NCBI GenBank assembly: GCA_012719345.1
Contig: JAAYAN010000198.1
Span: 1 to 62,442, forward strand
DNA from: Ignavibacteria bacterium
Lineage (GTDB): Bacteria; Bacteroidota; Ignavibacteria; Ignavibacteriales; Melioribacteraceae
DNA length: 62,442 nt
Direction: 5' to 3'
Part shown: one piece after another, positions 2,592 to 46,091 of the stretch
Numbering within the stretch: position 1 is the stretch's first letter
Layout: each line of letters starts with the position of its first letter
The notes under the pieces: model-generated
What the model saw: the letters and a program-made list of their open reading frames with translations, nothing else
Databases searched by the model: none
Told to the model about the DNA's origin: nothing
Translations under genes and position numbers: made by a program

Positions 2592-2605
2592 TAATTAAAA
2601 AATAA

Positions 2606-2637
2606 TTTGGATATTAAATAAAAATGTGTTATATTTG
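2606..2637 (+). promoter_or_regulatory. Bacteroidota-type promoter TTTG-N20-TATATTTG
   Basis: TTTG at 2606-2609 and TATATTTG at 2630-2637 with 20 bases between them match the -33/-7 consensus of Bacteroidota vegetative promoters. Transcription would start near 2644 and run into the accessory block starting at 2711. Confidence 0.75.
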
Positions 2638-2646
2638 TATTAGAAA

Positions 2647-2710: not shown

Positions 2711-3310
2711 ATGAAAAACTCAAATCAAAACACAGAAAAACAAACAGAATTTGGCAGATTTGAAATCTTCGTCCCTGATTCAGAAGAATATAACGAAGAT
2801 TTTATGTATTCGTTTTTGAACAATTTAGTTCAAAAATATGGAATTCAGTATGAAGTATATGCAGAAGATCAAGACACTGGATTTGGGACTGAATATTTGG
2901 TTAATTACTCATTGCCCGAAACTATGGGCTTTGATGATAGCAACTTTACAGCAATATCCGATTTTAATGATTTTCTACAAAAAGAATGGTTTATATATTG
3001 GCAAATATTCACTGGCATTGATATTCAAAGATGGGATGCTGCGAACAACGGATATGACGAAATTGAAATAGGGATTGATTGCTTAAAGGCAATTTACAAA
3101 ATGCGTGGCATCAAATCAAATCCGATAGAAGATTTATATTCAATTTATTTTGAAGATTATTTCGAGGGGAATGATGAACAAAAAGCCGAGTTGATAGCTG
3201 AAGTAGAAAACGACTCAAGTTTAAATATTTGGAAAAAAGGGAATATGATTACTTCTCACGTATATATTGATGGATTTGGAGAAGGTGAAATCAATTTAGA
3301 TAAATTATAG
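2711..3310 (+). CDS. Acidic protein of unknown function
   Basis: 199 residues, very rich in Asp and Glu (for example EDYFEGNDEQ), with no signal peptide or membrane segment. The start has AGGAG nine bases upstream. It is the first gene after the 2606-2637 promoter. The stop codon TAG forms the first bases of a tRNA-like element. No family is recognised. Strong negative charge and location beside a CRISPR-like locus would fit a DNA-mimic or anti-defence protein, but that is inference only. Confidence 0.75.
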   Translation: MKNSNQNTEKQTEFGRFEIFVPDSEEYNEDFMYSFLNNLVQKYGIQYEVYAEDQDTGFGTEYLVNYSLPETMGFDDSNFTAISDFNDFLQKEWFIYWQIFTGIDIQRWDAANNGYDEIEIGIDCLKAIYKMRGIKSNPIEDLYSIYFEDYFEGNDEQKAELIAEVENDSSLNIWKKGNMITSHVYIDGFGEGEINLDKL

Positions 3311-3352
3311 CCGTTTAGGAAGCACGGGGGTTCGAGTCCCCCGGCGGTTTCA
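3309..3352 (+). ncRNA. tRNA-like minihelix 1 (acceptor stem plus T arm)
   Basis: AGCCGTT at 3309-3315 can pair, with three G-U wobbles, with GGCGGTT at 3343-3349. Between them a perfect T arm is visible: GGGGG, the loop TTCGAGT, CCCCC. The D and anticodon arms are missing, with only ten bases (TAGGAAGCAC) joining acceptor and T arm. The element overlaps the stop codon of the preceding gene. Could be a tRNA remnant, a processing signal for RNase P/Z, or a recombination site. Confidence 0.6.
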
Positions 3353-3385
3353 AAGATTTTGTTTAATTTTTATATAGGAGAAAAA

Positions 3386-3763
3386 ATGGAAAATCCAAAG
3401 TTTATCGTAGCTCTTTTTAAAAGAGATAGTATTCAACTTGCATTTAAATGCAATAAAAATAAAGAAGTTGATGAACTTATAAGCAATACTTTATCGAATA
3501 AAGATGATTATATGTATTACGATGATGAAATTATCAAAAATTTCAAAAAAGATGATGAAGATTACGATGACGAGTTCTACACTGGCGAGGGCTGGTATAG
3601 TTCGAATAGTAAAGAAATTGTTTGGGTTAATGGGCAAGATACTGCTTTTAATTATGATAATTATAAAATTAGGGTTTTTGAAAATGATGAAGTTGATTGG
3701 TTCCTGGAGAAATACCCAGACGTCTTTTTGCATATATTTAATAATAATAGATTTGATATATAG
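3386..3763 (+). CDS. Small acidic protein of unknown function
   Basis: 125 residues with an extremely acidic middle (KKDDEDYDDEFY). The ATG at 3386 is chosen over an upstream TTG because AGGAG lies immediately before it. It lies between two tRNA-like elements, and its TAG stop overlaps the second. No family recognised; the pattern of small acidic ORFs divided by identical elements suggests modular accessory genes. Confidence 0.7.
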   Translation: MENPKFIVALFKRDSIQLAFKCNKNKEVDELISNTLSNKDDYMYYDDEIIKNFKKDDEDYDDEFYTGEGWYSSNSKEIVWVNGQDTAFNYDNYKIRVFENDEVDWFLEKYPDVFLHIFNNNRFDI

Positions 3764-3805
3764 CCGTTTTGGAAGCACGGGGGGTTCGACTCCCCCAACG
3801 GCTCA
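3762..3805 (+). ncRNA. tRNA-like minihelix 2 (acceptor stem plus T arm)
   Basis: AGCCGTT (3762-3768) pairs perfectly over 7 bp with AACGGCT (3797-3803). Inside is a T arm GGGGG-TTCGACT-CCCCC with the canonical TTCGANT loop. The linker TTGGAAGCAC replaces the D and anticodon arms. Closely similar to the element at 3309, and again it contains the stop codon of the preceding gene. Confidence 0.65.
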
Positions 3806-3834
3806 AGTTTATTAACTATTTTGAAAGGTAAATT

Positions 3835-4305
3835 ATGAAAGAAAGAAAACAATACAAAATTGATGCAGATGAGTTCTTGCTACTTAATACTGAAGCAAGA
3901 ATTAATCCAGAGGTAGCAAGCAGGCGTCCATTTGTTACAGAGCGGGACATTGCACGATATTATTCACTTTTATCTTTCATTGCAAGGAATATTGATATTA
4001 GCAAAGAAGAATTTATTTTGATTTGCGACTCCTACAACGGAGTTATTCCGAGCAAAAGCGACCCACTCCTTTATGCTCGTGTTTTTAGTTTGAATATTGA
4101 AGATAATATCAAACTTAATAAAGCTGATGAACGTTTTGCCGTTGAGGGAAAAACGTTGCTTGAGAAAATTGAAAAAATGTCAATAGCTGAACGTCTTTGT
4201 TTGCTTGACGCTATTGAAATGTTTTTTGTCAAAAAGCCAGAAATTCAATTTGACACATTTCAAGAGTTTTATCAAAATTTAATAAAACTTAATTCACAAA
4301 ATTAA
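3835..4305 (+). CDS. Hypothetical protein of the accessory block
   Basis: 156 residues, mostly helical by composition, no membrane segment. The start is preceded by GAAAGG at good spacing. It follows a tRNA-like element and is followed by the 18-bp GC-rich element, so it is delimited like its neighbours. No family recognised. Confidence 0.7.
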   Translation: MKERKQYKIDADEFLLLNTEARINPEVASRRPFVTERDIARYYSLLSFIARNIDISKEEFILICDSYNGVIPSKSDPLLYARVFSLNIEDNIKLNKADERFAVEGKTLLEKIEKMSIAERLCLLDAIEMFFVKKPEIQFDTFQEFYQNLIKLNSQN

Positions 4306-4307
4306 AT

Positions 4308-4325
4308 GCCGGCGGGCGTAAAACG
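4308..4325 (+). repeat. 18-bp GC-rich element, copy 2
   Basis: Identical to 2680-2697 over all 18 bases. It sits three bases after the preceding stop and ten bases before the next ATG, so it occupies most of the ribosome-binding region of the 4335 gene and may affect its translation. Confidence 0.7.
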
Positions 4326-4334
4326 TGCAAAGAA

Positions 4335-4835
4335 ATGGAAAACGCAGAAACAAATCAAGGAAACAGTATTTTGAACGCACTCAAAAAACTCGAAAGAGCT
4401 GGCAGTGAGGGTTCAAAGACGGTTCAAAAACTCAAAGATGCAACATACAAAGTTGCTGATTTTATCGCGGAGCAAATAGATGCGGTAATAGATTTAGACA
4501 GGTCAGGTGGATTGTATATTACAGGAGAGTTGCTTTCTTGGATGGAACTTTTTGATGACTATGAACTGCATATCCGCCGCTTTAAAAATGTCGAATGGTA
4601 TACAAAAGCAATTCTACAAAAAGACAATTGCTGTTTCAACGCTACAAGCGAAGAAATTGAGCAACTTGATGACAATGAAGAATTGAGAGGAACGTGTAGA
4701 AAAGATGCTTTGTTTTTTTCAAGCGACATAGCAAACGGCTTGCTTGACAAAATTGCCGAAATGCTTGAAAAAAAGAACAAAAAGAGTATAACCGCATTTG
4801 AGACAATTGAAAAGGAAATACCCAAAGAAAACTAA
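4335..4835 (+). CDS. Hypothetical protein, helical, acidic C-terminal half
   Basis: 166 residues. The N-terminal half is basic and helical (LKKLERAGSEGSK region). The C-terminal half contains an acidic stretch and two Cys (near residues 97-98) plus another near 117. No family recognised. Its 3' end overlaps by four bases the 3' end of the minus-strand HTH gene, so the two are convergent. Confidence 0.7.
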   Translation: MENAETNQGNSILNALKKLERAGSEGSKTVQKLKDATYKVADFIAEQIDAVIDLDRSGGLYITGELLSWMELFDDYELHIRRFKNVEWYTKAILQKDNCCFNATSEEIEQLDDNEELRGTCRKDALFFSSDIANGLLDKIAEMLEKKNKKSITAFETIEKEIPKEN

Positions 4836-5023
4836 TCTTTATCAATTATTTTTATACCGTATTTATTGAGGCATAGTTCAATGGACTGTGCCTCTTTTAC
4901 GTTTAGTTCAGTCCCACGCCTGATTTTTGCCAATAAAGTAAGTTCTTTTATTCCAGTCTCACGTGATATTGCCGATATATTCAATATCGGCGACAATTCT
5001 TTTATTTTCTTTATATCAATCAT
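4832..5023 (-). CDS. Small helix-turn-helix DNA-binding protein
   Basis: 63 residues. The stretch LNISAISRETGIKELTLLAK reads as a helix-turn-helix, followed by a C-terminal helix, like the short HTH proteins common in Bacteroidota mobile elements. It is divergent from csf1 with about 90 bases between starts, which makes it the obvious candidate regulator of the csf operon. A TATTTTTG box lies only a few bases before its start on the minus strand, so its mRNA may be nearly leaderless. Confidence 0.75.
   Translation of the reverse strand: MIDIKKIKELSPILNISAISRETGIKELTLLAKIRRGTELNVKEAQSIELCLNKYGIKIIDKD
4868..4899 (+). terminator. Intrinsic terminator inside the antisense HTH gene
   Basis: GAGGCATAGT pairs with ACTGTGCCTC (ten pairs, one wobble) around a seven-base loop, followed by TTTTA. 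On the plus strand this would end transcription from the accessory block before csf1, while the same bases encode part of the minus-strand HTH protein. Confidence 0.6.
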
Positions 5024-5044
5024 AAATACAAAAATAAAAAATAA

Positions 5045-5076
5045 TTTGCATAATAATTAAAATATCACTACATTTG
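5045..5076 (+). promoter_or_regulatory. Promoter of the csf operon, TTTG-N20-TACATTTG
   Basis: TTTG at 5045-5048 and TACATTTG at 5069-5076 separated by exactly 20 bases, the Bacteroidota vegetative pattern. Predicted start of transcription is near 5083, giving a leader of about 30 bases before csf1, without a clear Shine-Dalgarno sequence. Confidence 0.8.
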
Positions 5077-5114
5077 TAAAAAATATATAACAAGTGTAAT
5101 AAACATATAACACT

Positions 5115-5822
5115 ATGCGCTCAACTGAACTAATATCAAAACATATAGATATAGAACTGAAAGAAACAGAAGGCGTCAATACTATATGCTGTTTCACTGG
5201 CAAACCAATTACGAAAGGAATCCATAAGAAGCATATCGTAGGGGTGAATTTTACGGATATTGAATATATAAAATATCCGAGTGATTATGTTTCACTTGAA
5301 ATTGCAAAATGTATTATGCCGGTTATTCCTTCATCAAACAAAGAAGGACGCTTAAATTCATTAAGGAACTATTCTTATCTATCTACTGAAAAAGAGCTTA
5401 AACTCCTTGCAAGAGAAGATTGTATTGAAATACTCAAAAATCCACCATCTCCACCTTTCGTTTTTGCATATACTTACAACAACAAAAAGCATACAACTTT
5501 TAAATCTAAAATTACTTTCAATACTTCAAATATATTTGTTACTACGGATATAAATGGAATTATTGAAATTAAAAAGGAAATATTTGATTTGTTATTTCCT
5601 ATTATTCAAAGTTGGTATTCTTTTGAAGAAAGTATGAAGACCACAGAAACATATTTTACTAAAGGTGAAATCCTTTTCGGAACTGACAATACAAGAAATA
5701 TTGAACGTTATGGGTTTGAAAAATTCTATTCAGAAACTAGTATCTTAAATAAATATCGCAATACACTAATTTTAGAACTATTGACAAGGTTTGTGAATCG
5801 TGAGAATAAAATTAACATTTGA
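5115..5822 (+). CDS. csf1: Csf1-like large-subunit protein of a type IV CRISPR-Cas effector
   Basis: 235 residues, close to the usual Csf1 size. Near residue 25 is a CCFTGKPITKG segment followed by an FTD stretch and another Cys near residue 64, the layout of the Csf1 zinc-ribbon region with fewer cysteines than usual. The PPSPPFVFAY stretch near residue 110 and the KKH about ten residues later match the characteristic Csf1 core. In type IV complexes Csf1 is the small Cas8-like subunit at the crRNA 5' end. It opens a seven-gene operon, and its end overlaps cas6 by 23 bases. Identification is by motif and context. Confidence 0.85.
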   Translation: MRSTELISKHIDIELKETEGVNTICCFTGKPITKGIHKKHIVGVNFTDIEYIKYPSDYVSLEIAKCIMPVIPSSNKEGRLNSLRNYSYLSTEKELKLLAREDCIEILKNPPSPPFVFAYTYNNKKHTTFKSKITFNTSNIFVTTDINGIIEIKKEIFDLLFPIIQSWYSFEESMKTTETYFTKGEILFGTDNTRNIERYGFEKFYSETSILNKYRNTLILELLTRFVNRENKINI

Positions 5823-6534
5823 TTTTAATGGAAAGTTAATTATTCCTTTTCGTTTCTTGGAAGATTATCAAACTTTCATTTACGAATTGCTCCAGAATTA
5901 TTCTGAAAAAGACTGGCTGCATAATGAAGGTATGAATAACGGCGGCAGGTCATACAAACCACTTGTTTATTCACATATCTACGGAGCAAGAGAAATTAAG
6001 AAGTATTCTATTCTGTATCACGCTCCAATTCATATTTGGATTGCAAGCCCTTATCCGAAATTAATCAATTCAATACAGGAACTAATAGACAAAAGAGCTT
6101 ATTTTAGATTTTTCAACCAAACAGTAGTAGTAAAAAATTATGAAGTAGAGGAAATAGAAGAAATCAAATCTAATACGTTCAAAACACTCTCTCCTATTGT
6201 AGTTTCAAAGCCAGTTCGATTATACAACGGTAAATTCAATACAAATTATTTGAGTGCATTTAGCAATGAATTTAGCAGGGTAGTTCAGGAAAATTTGATT
6301 AGGAAGGCAAAATCTTTTTACGATATGAATTTGAACGGGTATTTTAATATTATTCCAAAATTCAATTCAAATGACTATCAAAAAAGTTTTACGTATAAAA
6401 ATACTATAATTAAGGGCTGGGTAGGGGCATTCCAAATTATCGGTTCAAAAGATTATCTCTATGTGGCTGCTAATTGTGGACTCGGAAGTAAAAACGCTCA
6501 AGGTTTTGGGCTTATTGATATTATTAATAATTAA
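5800..6534 (+). CDS. cas6: Cas6-family crRNA-processing endoribonuclease
   Basis: 244 residues, starting with GTG inside the end of csf1. The C-terminal glycine-rich loop GLGSKNAQGFGLI near residue 227 is the Cas6 signature, and a His near residue 70 (YHAPIHIW) is a possible catalytic residue. Cas6 cuts CRISPR repeat RNA and may stay bound to the crRNA hairpin. CysH-associated type IV-B loci usually lack a cas6 gene, so its presence with a cysH-like gene is unusual. No local array was seen that would provide its substrate. Confidence 0.88.
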   Translation: MRIKLTFDFNGKLIIPFRFLEDYQTFIYELLQNYSEKDWLHNEGMNNGGRSYKPLVYSHIYGAREIKKYSILYHAPIHIWIASPYPKLINSIQELIDKRAYFRFFNQTVVVKNYEVEEIEEIKSNTFKTLSPIVVSKPVRLYNGKFNTNYLSAFSNEFSRVVQENLIRKAKSFYDMNLNGYFNIIPKFNSNDYQKSFTYKNTIIKGWVGAFQIIGSKDYLYVAANCGLGSKNAQGFGLIDIINN

Positions 6535-6546
6535 AAGGTTATGATT

Positions 6547-7989
6547 ATGGAAATAAAATACAAAATGACAGCAAAAAGCCCTCTTTATACCGGGGCTGGC
6601 AATCAAATCGGAATCAAATCCGAGCTTCGAAAGCAAAAAGTAAAAATTAAGAATCCTACAAAAGTCATATCAAAATTTATAAATGAAACGGATAGGGAAC
6701 TTGCTTTTGTAGATGTATTGACAATGCTATACGCTCATATATCTCCAGATTATCGAATGAAACGGGGGAAGGATATTTGGAAAGAGTTTAAAAGTGGTTT
6801 GCTGCAAGCTGCTGGCTGCAAGTCAATATCAAATTTCATTTCACGTTTTGCTTCTCGTTTCGATGTCGGATGCTATGATACCAAAATACTGCAATATTTA
6901 GAAATGTTTGACAATTCAGAATTTTTGCAATATTTGACTGACAATATTGATTATCTTATTACGAAAATGAGATTAACGCGTGAATCGAAAAACAATAATT
7001 TCAAGAAAATAAAAGAGATTGAAAAAGCAATGGAATTGCTGCTCATAGATTATAAAGAAGATGATATGTTTGGAGATGAAAAACGAAAAAAGCAAATAGA
7101 TGATTTGGCAAACGAGCAAAAACAACTTGAAACGAATGAAACAGGGCTTTTGTTTGATGTGAAAAGCTATGAAGTAACTAATTCAGAATTGGTATTTAGT
7201 AAAGATTTTGAGCAAGTGCCGTTATTCAGTGGAAATTCTATTGCTGGCATTATGAGGCGTATTGTTATGGCTGATTATTTCCAACGAATTGAATTGAACG
7301 ATTTGCTTGATTTTACGTATCATACATTTTTCACTGGTGGGAGTTTGACAACAAAAGTAGAAAACGAATTCACAGAAAAACTTGCTGAGTTTTCTGGGAA
7401 AATGGAAGATAAACTCAAAAAGGAAATTGACCATCAGCTTAAACTTGCTGGGAATGATAATTCTATAATAGATTTGAAAAAAGATGATGCCCTAGCTTAT
7501 TACTGCACTCCGTTACGTTTGTTTGGCTCGGCAACTGTAAATGCAATGGTAGAAAGTGAAATGATTGTTAGCAATGCACGGCTTGTTTGCAAAGAAAATG
7601 GGAATGGTGATATTTCACTATGGAGTTTGATTGAGGATATTGCTCATAGTCGTTTGGATAGTGAAAAGACAGAAAGAGATATAAATATTGAACAAACCAA
7701 TTCGCAAACTCAACAAATGCAATACTGGATGGAGACTATTATAGAGGGGGCAGAATTTGAACATTCATTTGTATTGAAATCGAAAGACCCATATATTGAA
7801 AATTGTTTTCACGCTTCTTTAAAGTTGTTTTGTGATTATCACAGAATTGGTGGCAAATCGGCACGTGGTCTTGGCGATATTGATTTATCTGAACTTGAAA
7901 AGCATATTGATTTGTTGAAGGTAAAAGCATATTATCAGCATTTGGAGGGGAACAAAGAAGAAATAAGAAGGTATATAACAGGTGAATAA
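6547..7989 (+). CDS. csf2: Csf2 (Cas7-like backbone protein), enlarged
   Basis: 480 residues, clearly longer than typical Csf2 (about 330-350). RAMP features: an N-terminal KSPLYTGAG strand-turn, VPLFSGNSIAGIMRR near residue 224 (the Cas7/Csf2 pattern of Pro-x-SGNSIRG-x-x-RR), and a C-terminal glycine-rich GGKSARGLGDI near residue 435. Residues about 60-215 form a long, largely helical insertion absent from ordinary Csf2. The second ATG (6547) has AAGG at proper spacing and is preferred over 6541. Csf2 would polymerise along the crRNA. Confidence 0.83.
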   Translation: MEIKYKMTAKSPLYTGAGNQIGIKSELRKQKVKIKNPTKVISKFINETDRELAFVDVLTMLYAHISPDYRMKRGKDIWKEFKSGLLQAAGCKSISNFISRFASRFDVGCYDTKILQYLEMFDNSEFLQYLTDNIDYLITKMRLTRESKNNNFKKIKEIEKAMELLLIDYKEDDMFGDEKRKKQIDDLANEQKQLETNETGLLFDVKSYEVTNSELVFSKDFEQVPLFSGNSIAGIMRRIVMADYFQRIELNDLLDFTYHTFFTGGSLTTKVENEFTEKLAEFSGKMEDKLKKEIDHQLKLAGNDNSIIDLKKDDALAYYCTPLRLFGSATVNAMVESEMIVSNARLVCKENGNGDISLWSLIEDIAHSRLDSEKTERDINIEQTNSQTQQMQYWMETIIEGAEFEHSFVLKSKDPYIENCFHASLKLFCDYHRIGGKSARGLGDIDLSELEKHIDLLKVKAYYQHLEGNKEEIRRYITGE

Positions 7990-8755
7990 AGATTATGAAT
8001 ATTGGAAGAAATTATATCTTGCTCATTCTGAAACTAATAGTTTTAAAAAGAATTTACAAAAGAGTAAAGATATAATTTCTGAATTTTTAGAATTAGGTAT
8101 TAAATCATATATTAGTTGGAGTTGCGGTAAAGATTCAACTGCTATGATGCACTTAATTTTGAATTTGAATAATGATATAAAAGTAGTTTCTGAAAAAGAC
8201 GATATGGATTTCCCTGAAGAAAAAGAATATTTAAATGAAATTGTTAAATTGTATAATATTGATATTGATATTATTTCTCCTGATGTGAATTTGTGGGATA
8301 TAATCATTAATCATAATATTGTAGAGGATATTCATTCAAAAGGAATTGACTTTTCAGAAAAATATTTTTATGATTTATTAAGAGGATATTCTGAAAAAAA
8401 CAAATATAAGGGGATTTTTCTTGGACTTCGAGCTGGTGAGAGTTGGGGACGTTTAATGAATCTCAAAGTTCATAGATATATTTATTACAATCAAAATTTT
8501 AAGCAAGTATTCTGCCAGCCGATAGCAGAATGGACAGCAAAAGATGTATTTGCTTATTTATTTTTAAACAACATACCAATTTTACCAGTTTATTTTAAAA
8601 CTAATTTTGTCAATAGTCCTGAGGATATAAGAAAAAGTTGGATATTACCGGGCAATAGGGCAAGCGAAGGGAATGCCTCTTGGCTACGATATTATTATCC
8701 AAATATATTTAAAAAGTTATGTATTATTCACCCTGAATTAAGGAGCTATACCTAG
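7982..8755 (+). CDS. cysH: CysH-like PP-loop (PAPS reductase family) protein
   Basis: 257 residues with a GTG start overlapping csf2 by eight bases. WSCGKDSTAM near residue 46 is the PP-loop of ATP pyrophosphatases of the PAPS reductase/DndC group. The C-terminal ECGxH catalytic motif of true PAPS reductases is absent (it ends HPELRSYT), so sulfate reduction is unlikely; adenylation or thiolation of a nucleic acid is possible. CysH-like genes are known companions of type IV-B loci, with unsettled function. Here it is translationally coupled to the effector genes. Confidence 0.82.
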   Translation: MNKDYEYWKKLYLAHSETNSFKKNLQKSKDIISEFLELGIKSYISWSCGKDSTAMMHLILNLNNDIKVVSEKDDMDFPEEKEYLNEIVKLYNIDIDIISPDVNLWDIIINHNIVEDIHSKGIDFSEKYFYDLLRGYSEKNKYKGIFLGLRAGESWGRLMNLKVHRYIYYNQNFKQVFCQPIAEWTAKDVFAYLFLNNIPILPVYFKTNFVNSPEDIRKSWILPGNRASEGNASWLRYYYPNIFKKLCIIHPELRSYT

Positions 8756-8757
8756 CA

Positions 8758-9126
8758 ATGATTAAAGATATAGAATTTAATAATATTCCAATAGAGATTA
8801 TAAATAATGCCAAAAAAGAAAATATATCATTTATGTTAAATGCTAAGTATTATGCTTACTATTTTAATAATGCAATAGTTGGAATATGTGCAATAATTAA
8901 AAATAGAAAGACAATTTTAAAATCAGCATTCGTATTACCAGAATTTAGGGGACGTGGTATATATAAAGAAATGGTAGATTATAGAATAAATCAATTAGAA
9001 TATCCTAAAGATTACCCGATTTTAGCAAGTGCATATTTTAAAGCAGCTAAACATTTAATTAAAATTGGATTTAAAGTAATTAAAAATTACAAAAAAGGTT
9101 ATTTATTAAGAAAGGATAAATTATGA
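8758..9126 (+). CDS. Small GNAT-fold acetyltransferase-like protein
   Basis: 122 residues. LPEFRGRGIYKEM near residue 60 is the acetyl-CoA pyrophosphate-binding turn (R-G-x-G) of GNAT enzymes; the flanking strands and the late ASAYFKAAKHLIKIGF helix also fit. The protein is very compact. Some phage GNAT-like enzymes, such as Mom, modify DNA bases rather than proteins, and its position between a PP-loop ATPase and a methyltransferase makes a nucleic acid substrate plausible. Substrate not determinable from sequence. Confidence 0.75.
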   Translation: MIKDIEFNNIPIEIINNAKKENISFMLNAKYYAYYFNNAIVGICAIIKNRKTILKSAFVLPEFRGRGIYKEMVDYRINQLEYPKDYPILASAYFKAAKHLIKIGFKVIKNYKKGYLLRKDKL

Positions 9127-9752
9127 TGTATGGAAACTCATGGGAAAAATATCCTATTGAAGAAAATGAAATTTGGAGCTATAAAGAAAACTTTATTTCA
9201 GTGCAAGACATAACAAAAGGGCTGCCTGATTATATGTATAAAGCAGATATGATTTATACTGATGCGCCTTGGACATTAGGCAACGTTAATATGTTTAATA
9301 AAAAAGCTGGAAGACAAAAAATGAATGACTACAAAGAATTTTATTCTCATCTTTTTCTACACATAAAAAACGTATCTCCAAAGGTTTGTTACTTAGAAAT
9401 TGGAAAAGAAAATATAAATTTATTTATTACAAAAATGTCAAAAATATTTAGCTATATAGAACAATGGGAAATTAAATACTATAATAAATTTATATGCTAC
9501 CTAATTAGAGGTGGAAATAAACCTTTTACAGGAAAAGATTTAAATAATTATGACGACACTTTAACACCGGAGATAGCTATATTAAATGAAAATCCTAAAA
9601 AAGTAGCTGATTTATGTATGGGGCGTGGACTTACAGCAATAGCAAGCCATAAATTAAATATAGAATTTGTTGGGACAGAGTTAATAAAAAGGAAATTAGC
9701 CGTTTTCATTGATAAAATGGCAAAAAATAATATATTATATCAAAAACAATGA
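9123..9752 (+). CDS. DNA methyltransferase-like protein (DAPW catalytic motif)
   Basis: 209 residues, start ATGA-overlapping the GNAT stop. Motif IV reads TDAPW (residues 46-50), a variant of DPPY/DPPW, and comes before the SAM-binding motif DLCMGRGLTA (near residue 163) with FVGTELIKRK after it. This is the permuted order of beta-class N4/N6 amino-methyltransferases. It lacks an obvious target-recognition domain, so specificity may come from partners. The change from Pro to Ala in motif IV is notable. Confidence 0.72.
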   Translation: MMYGNSWEKYPIEENEIWSYKENFISVQDITKGLPDYMYKADMIYTDAPWTLGNVNMFNKKAGRQKMNDYKEFYSHLFLHIKNVSPKVCYLEIGKENINLFITKMSKIFSYIEQWEIKYYNKFICYLIRGGNKPFTGKDLNNYDDTLTPEIAILNENPKKVADLCMGRGLTAIASHKLNIEFVGTELIKRKLAVFIDKMAKNNILYQKQ

Positions 9753-10360
9753 AAGTAATTCTAATGCGATATAAAGCAACATTCCATTTAAAGTCGCCAG
9801 TTATCTTTTATGAGCCACTCTTTTTCGATTCACTCCTTTTATATTGCTATATCAAAGATAAAATCGGATTCGTTCCAAGCAATATGTCAATAGATGAGCC
9901 GATTGAATTTGACTTGTTAAATCATCATTCAAGCGGAGTTTATATGGCTTCTGTTATGCAGTATGAAGAAAACTTTATCACCGATATAACGAATTTTACA
10001 AAACACTGGCATAAATCACATCAATATTTAGTTGGCAACAAAAAGACTTTTAAAATCAATCAAGGGGCTTACAAAAGCTATAACTTGCCTTATGAAACAA
10101 AAAATATTGATAAATGTTGGTTCGTTTTTGAAACTGAAAATATTGAAGATGTAAAAAGAATACTCAACACATATTGCTTTTCGTTAGGGAAGAAACGTAA
10201 CAGGGGATTTGGAGCTATAGAAAAAATTGAATTTGAAGAAACAACTGACGGAATTTTTAGACCAATACCTTGCGAGAGCAATCCGGATATCTATATACCG
10301 CTTAATCCACCATATTGGGAAGTGAAAAATTGTGTTGGATGTAAATTTGAGGGGATATAA
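9749..10360 (+). CDS. csf3: Csf3 (Cas5-like) protein of the type IV effector
   Basis: 203 residues, start ATGA-overlapping the methyltransferase stop. An N-terminal RAMP strand (ATFHLKSPV) is followed by FDSLLLY, matching the Csf3 DxLL pattern. The glycine-rich LGKKRNRGFGAIEKI lies near residue 147, and the C-terminus carries RPIP and the NPPYW motif before two Cys. In type IV complexes Csf3 caps the crRNA 5' region. It closes the operon; a strong terminator follows 80 bases later. Confidence 0.85.
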   Translation: MKVILMRYKATFHLKSPVIFYEPLFFDSLLLYCYIKDKIGFVPSNMSIDEPIEFDLLNHHSSGVYMASVMQYEENFITDITNFTKHWHKSHQYLVGNKKTFKINQGAYKSYNLPYETKNIDKCWFVFETENIEDVKRILNTYCFSLGKKRNRGFGAIEKIEFEETTDGIFRPIPCESNPDIYIPLNPPYWEVKNCVGCKFEGI

Positions 10361-10440: not shown

Positions 10441-10474
10441 AAGCCGATGAATTAGGTTTCATCGGCTTTTCTTT
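10441..10474. terminator. Strong intrinsic terminator after csf3
   Basis: GCCGATGAA (10443-10451) pairs perfectly with TTCATCGGC (10458-10466) around a six-base loop. It is flanked by A residues upstream and TTTTCTTT downstream, so it could work for csf3 and, less well, for the convergent integrase. Confidence 0.85.
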
Positions 10475-10520
10475 GGTACTTCCTACAGGATTCGAACCTG
10501 TGGCCCACTGATTAAGAGTT
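10474..10520 (-). other. attP: attP core: 3' half of a tRNA-Lys(CTT) gene
   Basis: On the minus strand this reads from the anticodon loop (ACTCTTAATCAGT) through the T arm ACAGG-TTCGAAT-CCTGT to an acceptor strand ending CCA. The 5' half of the tRNA is missing: the bases before the anticodon loop do not pair with TCAGT. A tRNA 3' half directly downstream of a tyrosine integrase is the classical attP, able to restore the host tRNA-Lys gene on integration. Confidence 0.88.
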
Positions 10521-44379: not shown

Positions 44380-44877
44380 ATGGCTCTTGAAAAATATCCA
44401 CCGCTTACAGAAGAAGATGTAACGAATCTTGACAAATACACTCAAGCAGAAACTGATGCTTTGTTAAATACAAAAGCTGCTTCAGTCCACAATCATACTG
44501 AGAGCAATATTACTGACCTTGACAAATACACTCAAGCAGAAATTACAAATTTACTTGCTGGTAAACTTGATAAATACACTTCTTACGATAACGGCTCTTC
44601 CCTTGCTATTGATGGTGCTAATGGAACTTATTTTAAAATAGCAACTGGCGTAAATAGTTCGTTTACTTTCTCTAATTTAGCAACTGGCGTAGTATATGGA
44701 ATTTTAATTAAAAATTCAGATTTGGCAGATGATATAACAATAACGTTACCGAACACAGCTGATATATTGCCAGCTTTAATAGCGACCGTAGATATACCAG
44801 CAGGTAGTTATATTGAATTTTCAGTGTTTTATGATGGAACCAATAGAATTTGGCAAATATCTGAGGAGTTATCATAA
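44380..44877 (+). CDS. Fibre-like protein with DKYTQAE repeats
   Basis: 165 residues from ATG 44380. The N-terminal third repeats NLDKYTQAETDALL-type steps twice, with NHTES between, as in phage fibre stalks; the rest is beta-rich (TGVNSSFTFSNLATGVVYG). Likely a head or tail fibre segment that works with the next gene, whose ATG overlaps its stop. Confidence 0.65.
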   Translation: MALEKYPPLTEEDVTNLDKYTQAETDALLNTKAASVHNHTESNITDLDKYTQAEITNLLAGKLDKYTSYDNGSSLAIDGANGTYFKIATGVNSSFTFSNLATGVVYGILIKNSDLADDITITLPNTADILPALIATVDIPAGSYIEFSVFYDGTNRIWQISEELS

Positions 44878-46091
44878 TGTTTAGACGCCATTCATTAGTA
44901 GGTGAAATACACACAGCAACACACGGTTTTATGACCGAATGGACTGTAAGCGGAGATGCTGAAGGAAGAACTATAACACTCCCTTTGGTTGCTGGTTATA
45001 ACTACGATTGTGTAATTGATTGGGGTGATGGTAGTGCAAAGAATGTTGTAACTGCTTTTGATGATGTTAATAGAATACATACTTATTCAGTTGCAGGAAA
45101 ATACAAAGTAGAGATAACAGGAACATGTGAGGGTTGGAGTTTTAATAATGCAGGTGATAAACTTAAAATTACAAATATATTATATTGGGGTAACCCACTT
45201 AAATTTAATGATTTTAAAGATTTAACTGGTGGATTTTATGGCTGCACTGCATTGAAATCTTTAGGTAGAGGTTCAATATTATATAGTGGTTCTGGTGGAT
45301 TCTATGAAACGTTCAGAAATTGTATTTCTGTAACTTCTGTTCCCGTAGATTTATTTAAATACAGCACAGCGGTTTCAGAGAATGGGTTTCGGAGAACATT
45401 TTACGGTTGCAGTTCATTAGCTTCATTACCAGTAGATTTATTCAGATATAATACTTTAGTTTCAACAAACGGGTTTCGTGAGACTTTTTACGGTTGCAGT
45501 TTATTAGCTTCATTACCAGTAGATTTATTCAGATATAATACAGCGGTATCAACTTATGGATTCTATGCGACTTTTTACGGTTGCAGTTCATTAGCTTCAT
45601 TACCAGTAGATTTATTCAGATATAATACAGCGGTATCAATTTATGGATTCTATGCGACTTTTCGCGGTTGCAGAAAATTAGCTTCATTACCAGTAGATTT
45701 ATTCAGATATAATACAGCGGTATCAACTTATGGATTCTATGCGACTTTTCACGGTTGCAGTTCATTAGCTTCATTACCAGATGGTTTATTCAGATATAAT
45801 ACAGCGGTATCAACTGATGGATTTTACAGAACGTTTTACGGTTGTGTAAAATTGCAATTACACAAATGGATTTTCTATTTAACTGGGGAAGAAGGAACAA
45901 GATTTTTAAATAAAACATTATCTTTTGCTGAATGTTTCTTCTTAACATCATTTGCGGGAACAATAGGCGAAGCACCAGAATTATGGAATTGCAACTTTGG
46001 AACAGGCACACCAACTATAACAGATTGTTTTAATGGACATAGTATAAATTCTGTAAGCAATTACGCAGATATTCCAGCAGAATGGTTATAA
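44877..46091 (+). CDS. Surface protein with PKD-like start and seven 29-residue LRR/DUF285-like repeats
   Basis: 404 residues. Residues about 20-90 look like a PKD/Ig domain (DWGDGSAKNVV, HTYSVAGKYKVEI). Then FYGCSSLASLPVDLFRYNTA-type units repeat every 29 residues, the BspA/DUF285 leucine-rich pattern. It is probably displayed on the virion and binds host or glycan. No signal peptide, consistent with a virion protein. Confidence 0.8.
   Translation: MFRRHSLVGEIHTATHGFMTEWTVSGDAEGRTITLPLVAGYNYDCVIDWGDGSAKNVVTAFDDVNRIHTYSVAGKYKVEITGTCEGWSFNNAGDKLKITNILYWGNPLKFNDFKDLTGGFYGCTALKSLGRGSILYSGSGGFYETFRNCISVTSVPVDLFKYSTAVSENGFRRTFYGCSSLASLPVDLFRYNTLVSTNGFRETFYGCSLLASLPVDLFRYNTAVSTYGFYATFYGCSSLASLPVDLFRYNTAVSIYGFYATFRGCRKLASLPVDLFRYNTAVSTYGFYATFHGCSSLASLPDGLFRYNTAVSTDGFYRTFYGCVKLQLHKWIFYLTGEEGTRFLNKTLSFAECFFLTSFAGTIGEAPELWNCNFGTGTPTITDCFNGHSINSVSNYADIPAEWL
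45317..45925 (+). repeat. 87-bp tandem repeat array
   Basis: The GGTTGCAG-like start recurs at 45404, 45491, 45578, 45665, 45752 and 45839, exactly 87 bases apart, with a more diverged unit at 45317. The central units are nearly identical, so copy number and sequence may vary by recombination. Confidence 0.9.

Follow-up and report, generated by a model that had tools for sequence, protein, structure and literature searches.

The window, by which we mean the whole stretch of 62,442 nucleotides analyzed here, corresponds to a circularly permuted and probably complete genome of a temperate phage, since the contig of a near relative is co-linear with it straight across positions 1 and 62442. An operon of small accessory genes (Table 1) occupies its hypervariable segment, and would be expressed from a putative promoter whose sequence recurs ahead of csf1 (5032-5078). 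Neither ORF1 nor ORF2 gave a match above the cut-off in the family search. The stop codon TAG is used by 7 of the 52 ORFs, and two of these seven are ORF1 and ORF2. Two imperfect 52-nt direct repeats (2396-2500), partly kept in the relative, lie 5' of the accessory-operon promoter and are a possible operator. Far from this region, five 87-bp tandem repeats (45399-45844) lie within the coding sequence (44877-46091) of a tail/late-region protein predicted to be repeat-rich.

Table 1. Genes, leaders and hairpin elements of the accessory region, with the likely attP of the phage.
Feature	Position	Strand	Description	Basis
Putative accessory-operon promoter	2593-2640	+	TTTG ... TAnnTTTG type	repeated sequence; promoter reading by interpretation
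ORF1	2711-3310	+	199 aa, acidic, ends in TAG of element 1	ORF call, family search
Hypervariable accessory-gene segment	2732-4734		flanks 88-97% identical	alignment to relative
Element 1	3308-3353	+	TAG stop of ORF1 and minihelix	sequence, folding, descriptor, covariance model
Element 1, acceptor 5' strand	3309-3315		AGCCGTT	
Element 1, linker	3316-3325		TAGGAAGCAC, 10 nt	
Element 1, T arm	3326-3342		GGGGG (3326-3330), loop TTCGAGT, CCCCC (3338-3342)	
Element 1, acceptor 3' strand	3343-3349		GGCGGTT	
Leader, element 1 to ORF2 start	3354-3385	+	AGGAG ribosome-binding site	
ORF2	3386-3763	+	125 aa, acidic, between the two elements, ATG at 3386	ORF call, family search
Element 2	3761-3807	+	TAG stop of ORF2 and minihelix	sequence, folding, descriptor, covariance model
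Element 2, acceptor 5' strand	3762-3768		AGCCGTT	
Element 2, linker			TTGGAAGCACG, 11 nt, one G more than element 1	
Element 2, T arm	3780-3796		GGGGG (3780-3784), loop TTCGACT, CCCCC (3792-3796)	
Element 2, acceptor 3' strand	3797-3803		AACGGCT	
Leader, element 2 to ORF3 start	3808-3834	+		
ORF3	3835-4305	+	156 aa, no assigned function	ORF call, comparison with relative
Likely attP	about 10474-10519	-	tRNA 3' half ending in CCA, reads as tRNA-Lys(CTT)	

Two hairpins of this operon resemble a tRNA reduced to one of its halves. These minihelices (3309-3350 and 3762-3803 on the + strand, 42-43 nt each) consist of a 7-bp acceptor-like stem, a linker of 10-11 nt with the common pattern T[A/T]GGAAGCAC, and a 5-bp G/C T stem carrying a TTCGANT loop, while the D arm and the anticodon arm are absent from both. 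The first base of each minihelix is the A of the TAG stop of ORF1 or ORF2, and the start codon of the next gene follows the element at a distance of 27-32 nt. A preliminary description of this DNA had seen two hairpins made of acceptor stem and T arm without D or anticodon arm, each starting in the stop codon of a different ORF; both statements are borne out by our reading of the sequence. The bases located 3' of the acceptor are TCAA in element 1 and CAAG in element 2, and no 3' CCA or RCC(A) is found in either of them.

A third copy of the element is carried by the near relative, IMG/VR contig 3300038675_000727 (21 kb). In that phage, a 331-aa frame likewise terminates in the TAG of the element, which is followed by an ORF 34% identical to ORF3. 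No pairwise similarity was detected among ORF1, ORF2 and the upstream ORF of the relative. The element itself is 93.5% identical to that of the relative over 62 nt, and element 1 together with its leader is 84% identical over 88 nt. Moreover, the leader behind the element of the relative resembles that of element 1, yet the gene downstream of it corresponds to the gene downstream of element 2 (ORF3). The alignable core of the two phages is about 94-99.6% identical, and identity goes down to 88-89% beside the accessory region. At 2.7-4.7 kb gene content differs between the two phages, the genes being replaced or diverged, and the hairpin is retained. The sole carriers of the element are two very close relatives, so that some of its similarity reflects recent common ancestry. 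Conservation between close phages is by itself no proof of selection; what carries information is the persistence of the element next to genes that change.

In each of the three copies, all 12 pairs form (36 standard pairs in 36 cells), with 7/7 in the acceptor stem every time, and with Watson-Crick pairs throughout the acceptor of element 2. The preliminary description had noted that the acceptor 3' strands differ and that pairing is kept partly via G-U, which agrees with these counts. Variation within the acceptor affects the 3' strand at three positions and never the 5' strand (G-C/G-U, U-A/U-G), so that no pair differs in both bases, and the TTCGANT loop varies solely at position 59. Since three copies from two close phages without covariation are at hand, selection acting on the RNA cannot be proved from them. 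Using a descriptor of the minihelix (7/7 acceptor pairs, 5/5 T-stem pairs, TTCRA loop), the two elements of the window and the copy of the relative were retrieved, with no further match in 1.26 Mb of other phage loci. Nine matches were obtained in 0.70 Mb of sequence preselected for tRNA-like AGCCGTT-GGGTTCGA sequences, and the pattern matches inspected in that set resemble ordinary tRNAs. When the sequences following the stop codons of the 52 ORFs were folded, both elements were the most stable, with -18.5 and -17.4 kcal/mol against a mean of -4.8 kcal/mol (sd 3.9). The gain of the isolated folds over shuffled sequences is modest (z about -1.4 and -1.5), so that the case for the elements is made by their specific architecture and their copies rather than by energy. 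In silico, the acceptor stem of element 1 is weak and has alternative folds of equal energy. Taken together, the elements are real, beyond chance, and so is the stem pairing of the minihelix.

The element is narrow in distribution and unusual. Three pattern scans of 2.9 million viral contigs gave, besides the phage and its relative, ordinary tRNAs or chance matches (80 of the 104 loci of the last scan were inspected). The same outcome was obtained in a pattern scan of genome contigs and in BLAST searches against phage and plasmid records. Using a covariance model, matches in 395 genomes of the phylum, 164 of the order and 79 of the family did not exceed 28 bits, to be compared with 70-77 bits for the copies, and those inspected were tRNA genes, tmRNA genes or hairpins within coding sequences. 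No relatives were recovered from viral contigs through the ORF1, ORF3 or Csf2 proteins; the neighboring cyclotransferase, used as query, had the same relative as its sole close match.

The likeness to tRNA raises the question of whether the elements derive from a tRNA. ARAGORN calls no tRNA in them, Rfam gives nothing at gathering score, and the sole tRNA-like signal at permissive thresholds comes from the T arms, which reach about 16 bits with the tmRNA model. The cloverleaf with anticodon arm and the tRNA-model score that define a tRNA gene are therefore lacking, whereas the 7-bp acceptor and 5-bp T stem with T loop of a minihelix are present. An alternative, which we regard as rather improbable, is that each element is what integration events left of a foreign class-II-like tRNA, namely its 3' half, comprising an anticodon-stem strand GCCG, a variable arm GTTT-NGG-AAGC, the T arm and the acceptor strand; ORF2 would then represent a small insertion flanked by two att-like repeats. 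A tRNA 3' half of 44 nt that begins in the anticodon loop is a typical att core. A short variable-arm hairpin can indeed be drawn, direct repeats are found on either side of ORF2, and the phage carries a tRNA 3' half of this kind at its own attP. It also counts for a tRNA fragment that integration often leaves such pieces behind (PMC9897764). However, all seven bases of the upstream strand are paired with the acceptor strand in each of the three copies. Among 616 genuine tRNAs, upstream pairing of 7/7 occurs in 6 (1%) with linkers of 8-13 nt, and all-Watson-Crick 7/7 pairing at a linker of 10-11 nt, as in element 2, occurs in none. These counts favor a minihelix over accidental pairing within a tRNA 3' half, and support, at the level of structure, the mimicry of tRNA that had been among the first suggestions. 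Moreover, CCA is missing, and the piece containing ORF2 has no integrase.

The search for a donor tRNA points in the same direction. None was found among the 40 tRNAs of the host assembly that score above the Rfam cut-off, or by the covariance model in the family, order and phylum samples described above. The covariance search that the preliminary description had called for, as a way of exposing decayed host tRNA fragments, thus speaks against such an origin, as does the full pairing of three copies. Neither do the elements behave as attP, which is expected beside the integrase and identical to the 3' end of a host tRNA: they lie 6.7 kb from the integrase and share at most about 18 nt with host tRNAs. 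A separate tRNA 3' half adjoins the integrase, 28 bp past its stop codon and followed by a terminator-like hairpin, so that the minihelices are not attP, and the earlier idea of att remnants finds no support as far as the att site of this phage is concerned. A Lys(CTT) gene is absent among those host tRNAs that could be read. The best host matches, two tRNA-Leu genes, share with the elements a T arm of 17-18 nt and nothing else; a resemblance of the 5' end of the element to anticodon-stem strands is an artefact of the search pattern and carries no weight; and, judged by eye, the core sites of integron attC do not fit.

Downstream of the accessory operon, a type IV-B-like cluster (5115-10360) contains csf1, cas6, a cas11-csf2 fusion, cysH, an unassigned ORF, a methyltransferase gene and csf3, and no CRISPR array was found with it. 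A small antisense ORF lies ahead of csf1 (4832-5023, - strand), and its product looks like a small DNA-binding regulator; a similar ORF precedes csf1 in the same position in another genome, G420. The preliminary description had suggested guide-like RNAs for the nearby Cas6 as one possible role of the minihelices. In a fuller form of this proposal, they would serve as substrate or guide scaffold for Cas6 and the type IV complex of the phage in replacement of the missing array. In described type IV-B systems cysH is present and cas6 absent, and the RNA bound by the complexes is an open question (PMC8175902). A cluster of this type with an unusual cas6 and no array, located 1.3 kb downstream on the same strand, would fit the proposal, as would the fact that, in the relative, the stretch that aligns with the beginning of the Cas cluster adjoins the element. 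Nevertheless, the minihelices belong to another operon than the Cas genes, with a putative promoter of its own. Furthermore, G420 has a homologous csf1-cas6-csf2-cysH-csf3 cassette (Csf2 57% identical), of which two copies (L249 and L250), 4.8 kb long and 99.9% identical, stand in different surroundings, and the minihelix is absent in and around both copies. CRISPR repeats would flank guides and move with the cas6 operon; the two copies of the window flank an ORF. A guide role for Cas6 is consequently unlikely, and replacement of the array by the elements has a probability close to negligible.

Because the elements lie within an operon that has a putative promoter, they are probably transcribed, and a role at the RNA level has to be considered. 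It can be proposed that they are tRNA-mimicking processing signals: RNase P would cleave within UAG, where the acceptor stem has its base, and RNase Z perhaps on the 3' side. The cut would separate the messages of neighboring genes, possibly leaving an upstream mRNA devoid of a stop codon. Cleavage by RNase P or RNase Z is plausible, since hairpins composed of acceptor stem, T stem and T loop are known substrates of RNase P (PMC11143913). Bacterial RNase P also cleaves some operon mRNAs and phage RNAs (PMC11143913, PMC4919922), and the elements, which keep the 7-bp acceptor, the 5-bp T stem and the TTCGANT loop in all three copies, sit between cistrons of one operon. Nevertheless, the 3' RCCA that RNase P substrates carry beside the acceptor is replaced by TCAA and CAAG, a change that weakens such substrates and argues for weak cleavage. 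The conserved single-stranded linker of 10-11 nt is left without explanation, and the weak acceptor of element 1 competes with rival folds. We thus see RNA processing as a less likely candidate, with roughly a one-in-four chance of being the main function; it is compatible with the role at gene junctions discussed below. A broader version of the same idea, in which the stripped-down tRNA acts as operon punctuation, the element giving the stop codon, host tRNA-maturation enzymes cutting within it and tRNA mimicry controlling the message ends, perhaps together with ribosome rescue, appears doubtful. If the RNA is processed, the elements would represent a natural use, in mRNA punctuation, of a minimal tRNA domain that has so far been mainly a test-tube substrate.

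A transcription terminator or a hairpin stabilizing the 3' end, with a tRNA look arising as a coincidence of G/C-rich pairing, would account for the fact that no other stop codon of the genome is followed by a structure of such stability. However, no U-run follows either element, so that they are not ordinary terminators, and the terminator-like sites identified in the region include neither of them. The TTCGANT loop and the 7+5 bp two-stem layout are not features of terminators either, which makes this explanation very improbable.

The reading that we favor, tentatively and with a little less than even confidence, is that the elements are junction pieces, or 'caps', of small gene cassettes in the hypervariable accessory operon of a temperate phage. 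In the preliminary description, the list of possible roles did not include this one; of the roles in that list, structural tRNA mimicry is supported and processing is plausible, while att remnants and Cas6 guides find no support. The proposed unit would combine the TAG stop with the acceptor/T-arm minihelix and a short leader that contains a ribosome-binding site, and would end one gene and start the next. Successive joints share this stretch of roughly 45-80 bp, so that the genes between them could be inserted, deleted or swapped by homologous recombination; recombination between identical patches, by the phage or its host, would lead to gain or loss of cassettes of the ORF2 type. The element would thus be a place of exchange, and its tRNA-like fold may protect or trim the upstream mRNA end.

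Several observations support this junction role. The same element stands 3' of three unrelated ORFs and is duplicated around ORF2. The arrangements ORF-element-ORF2-element-ORF3 in the window and ORF-element-ORF3' in the relative are those expected from gain or loss of a cassette made of ORF2 and one element. All three upstream ORFs stop at the TAG of the element, which is a minority stop codon of the genome, and the element persists where the ORFs next to it differ between two phages of closely similar core. On the other hand, only two genomes, very close relatives, carry the element, the unrelated ORFs on both sides of conserved elements are seen in comparison with a single relative, and a pure DNA linker would need no perfect tRNA-like fold of 7+5 bp. 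It should also be noted that a second leader motif, GYC-GNNG-GRC-GTAAAAC, is found at other joints of the same operon, so that junctions exist there without the minihelix. If the junction role is true, phages unrelated to T4 would have built their own shuffling linkers from stop-carrying tRNA-like hairpins, and the element would provide a sequence handle for finding cassettes of accessory, often anti-defense, genes.

The second leader motif deserves a description of its own. In the window, GCCGGCGGGCGTAAAACG is located at 2680-2697 and 4308-4325. According to its consensus, a 3-bp hairpin with a loop of 4-5 nt is followed by GTAAAAC, a ribosome-binding site and the start codon. It was found at 17 viral-contig loci of 31-66% GC, often in tandem (L109: 10780, 11043 and 12350; L010-L025), and in several cases precedes genes resembling capsid scaffold genes. 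In the orthologous leader of the relative, both strands of the stem differ from those of the window (GCC/GGC to GTC/GAC). Rfam gave no match at the positions of the motif, which is possibly an unreported phage RNA motif. At locus L015, a tRNA-Ala-like sequence of about 70 nt ending in CCA, not called by ARAGORN, lies directly upstream of the motif (- strand).

The minihelices can be compared with several known systems. The tRNA 3' fragments found at the att sites of tyrosine integrases are alike in length and T arm; in contrast, the elements are fully paired upstream and have no CCA and no donor, and attP is elsewhere. The AT1-type minihelices used as model substrates of RNase P are engineered and contact the enzyme through a 3' RCC(A), whereas the phage hairpins have a linker of 10-11 nt and no CCA. 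The tRNA-like structures of the mascRNA/menRNA type are eukaryotic, whereas the minihelices described here belong to a phage. The start-associated sequences (SAS/ESAS) of Cluster K mycobacteriophages are short, conserved and contain inverted repeats, and they occur where some of the accessory genes start (PMC3203893). They lie just ahead of start codons and have no tRNA-like loop, whereas the minihelix begins in the stop codon of the preceding gene; SAS/ESAS are closer to the second leader motif (2680, 4308) than to the minihelix. The remaining comparison is with the PeSLs (promoter-early stem-loops) of T4-like phages. In a PeSL, the promoter lies between the stem-loop and the next gene. No promoter is found between the element and the next gene among the promoter-like sites of the region; moreover, the stem here is in two parts, acceptor and T arm, and carries the stop codon, and the phage is temperate and unrelated to T4. 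PeSLs of T4-like phages are reported to mediate gene shuffling between relatives (PMC4503421). Because a promoter is missing between hairpin and gene, the elements would work like a PeSL without being a member of that class. As with the PeSLs, stem-loops repeated directly after stop codons, here three copies in two phages, mark the gene joints of hyperplastic regions made of small variable genes.
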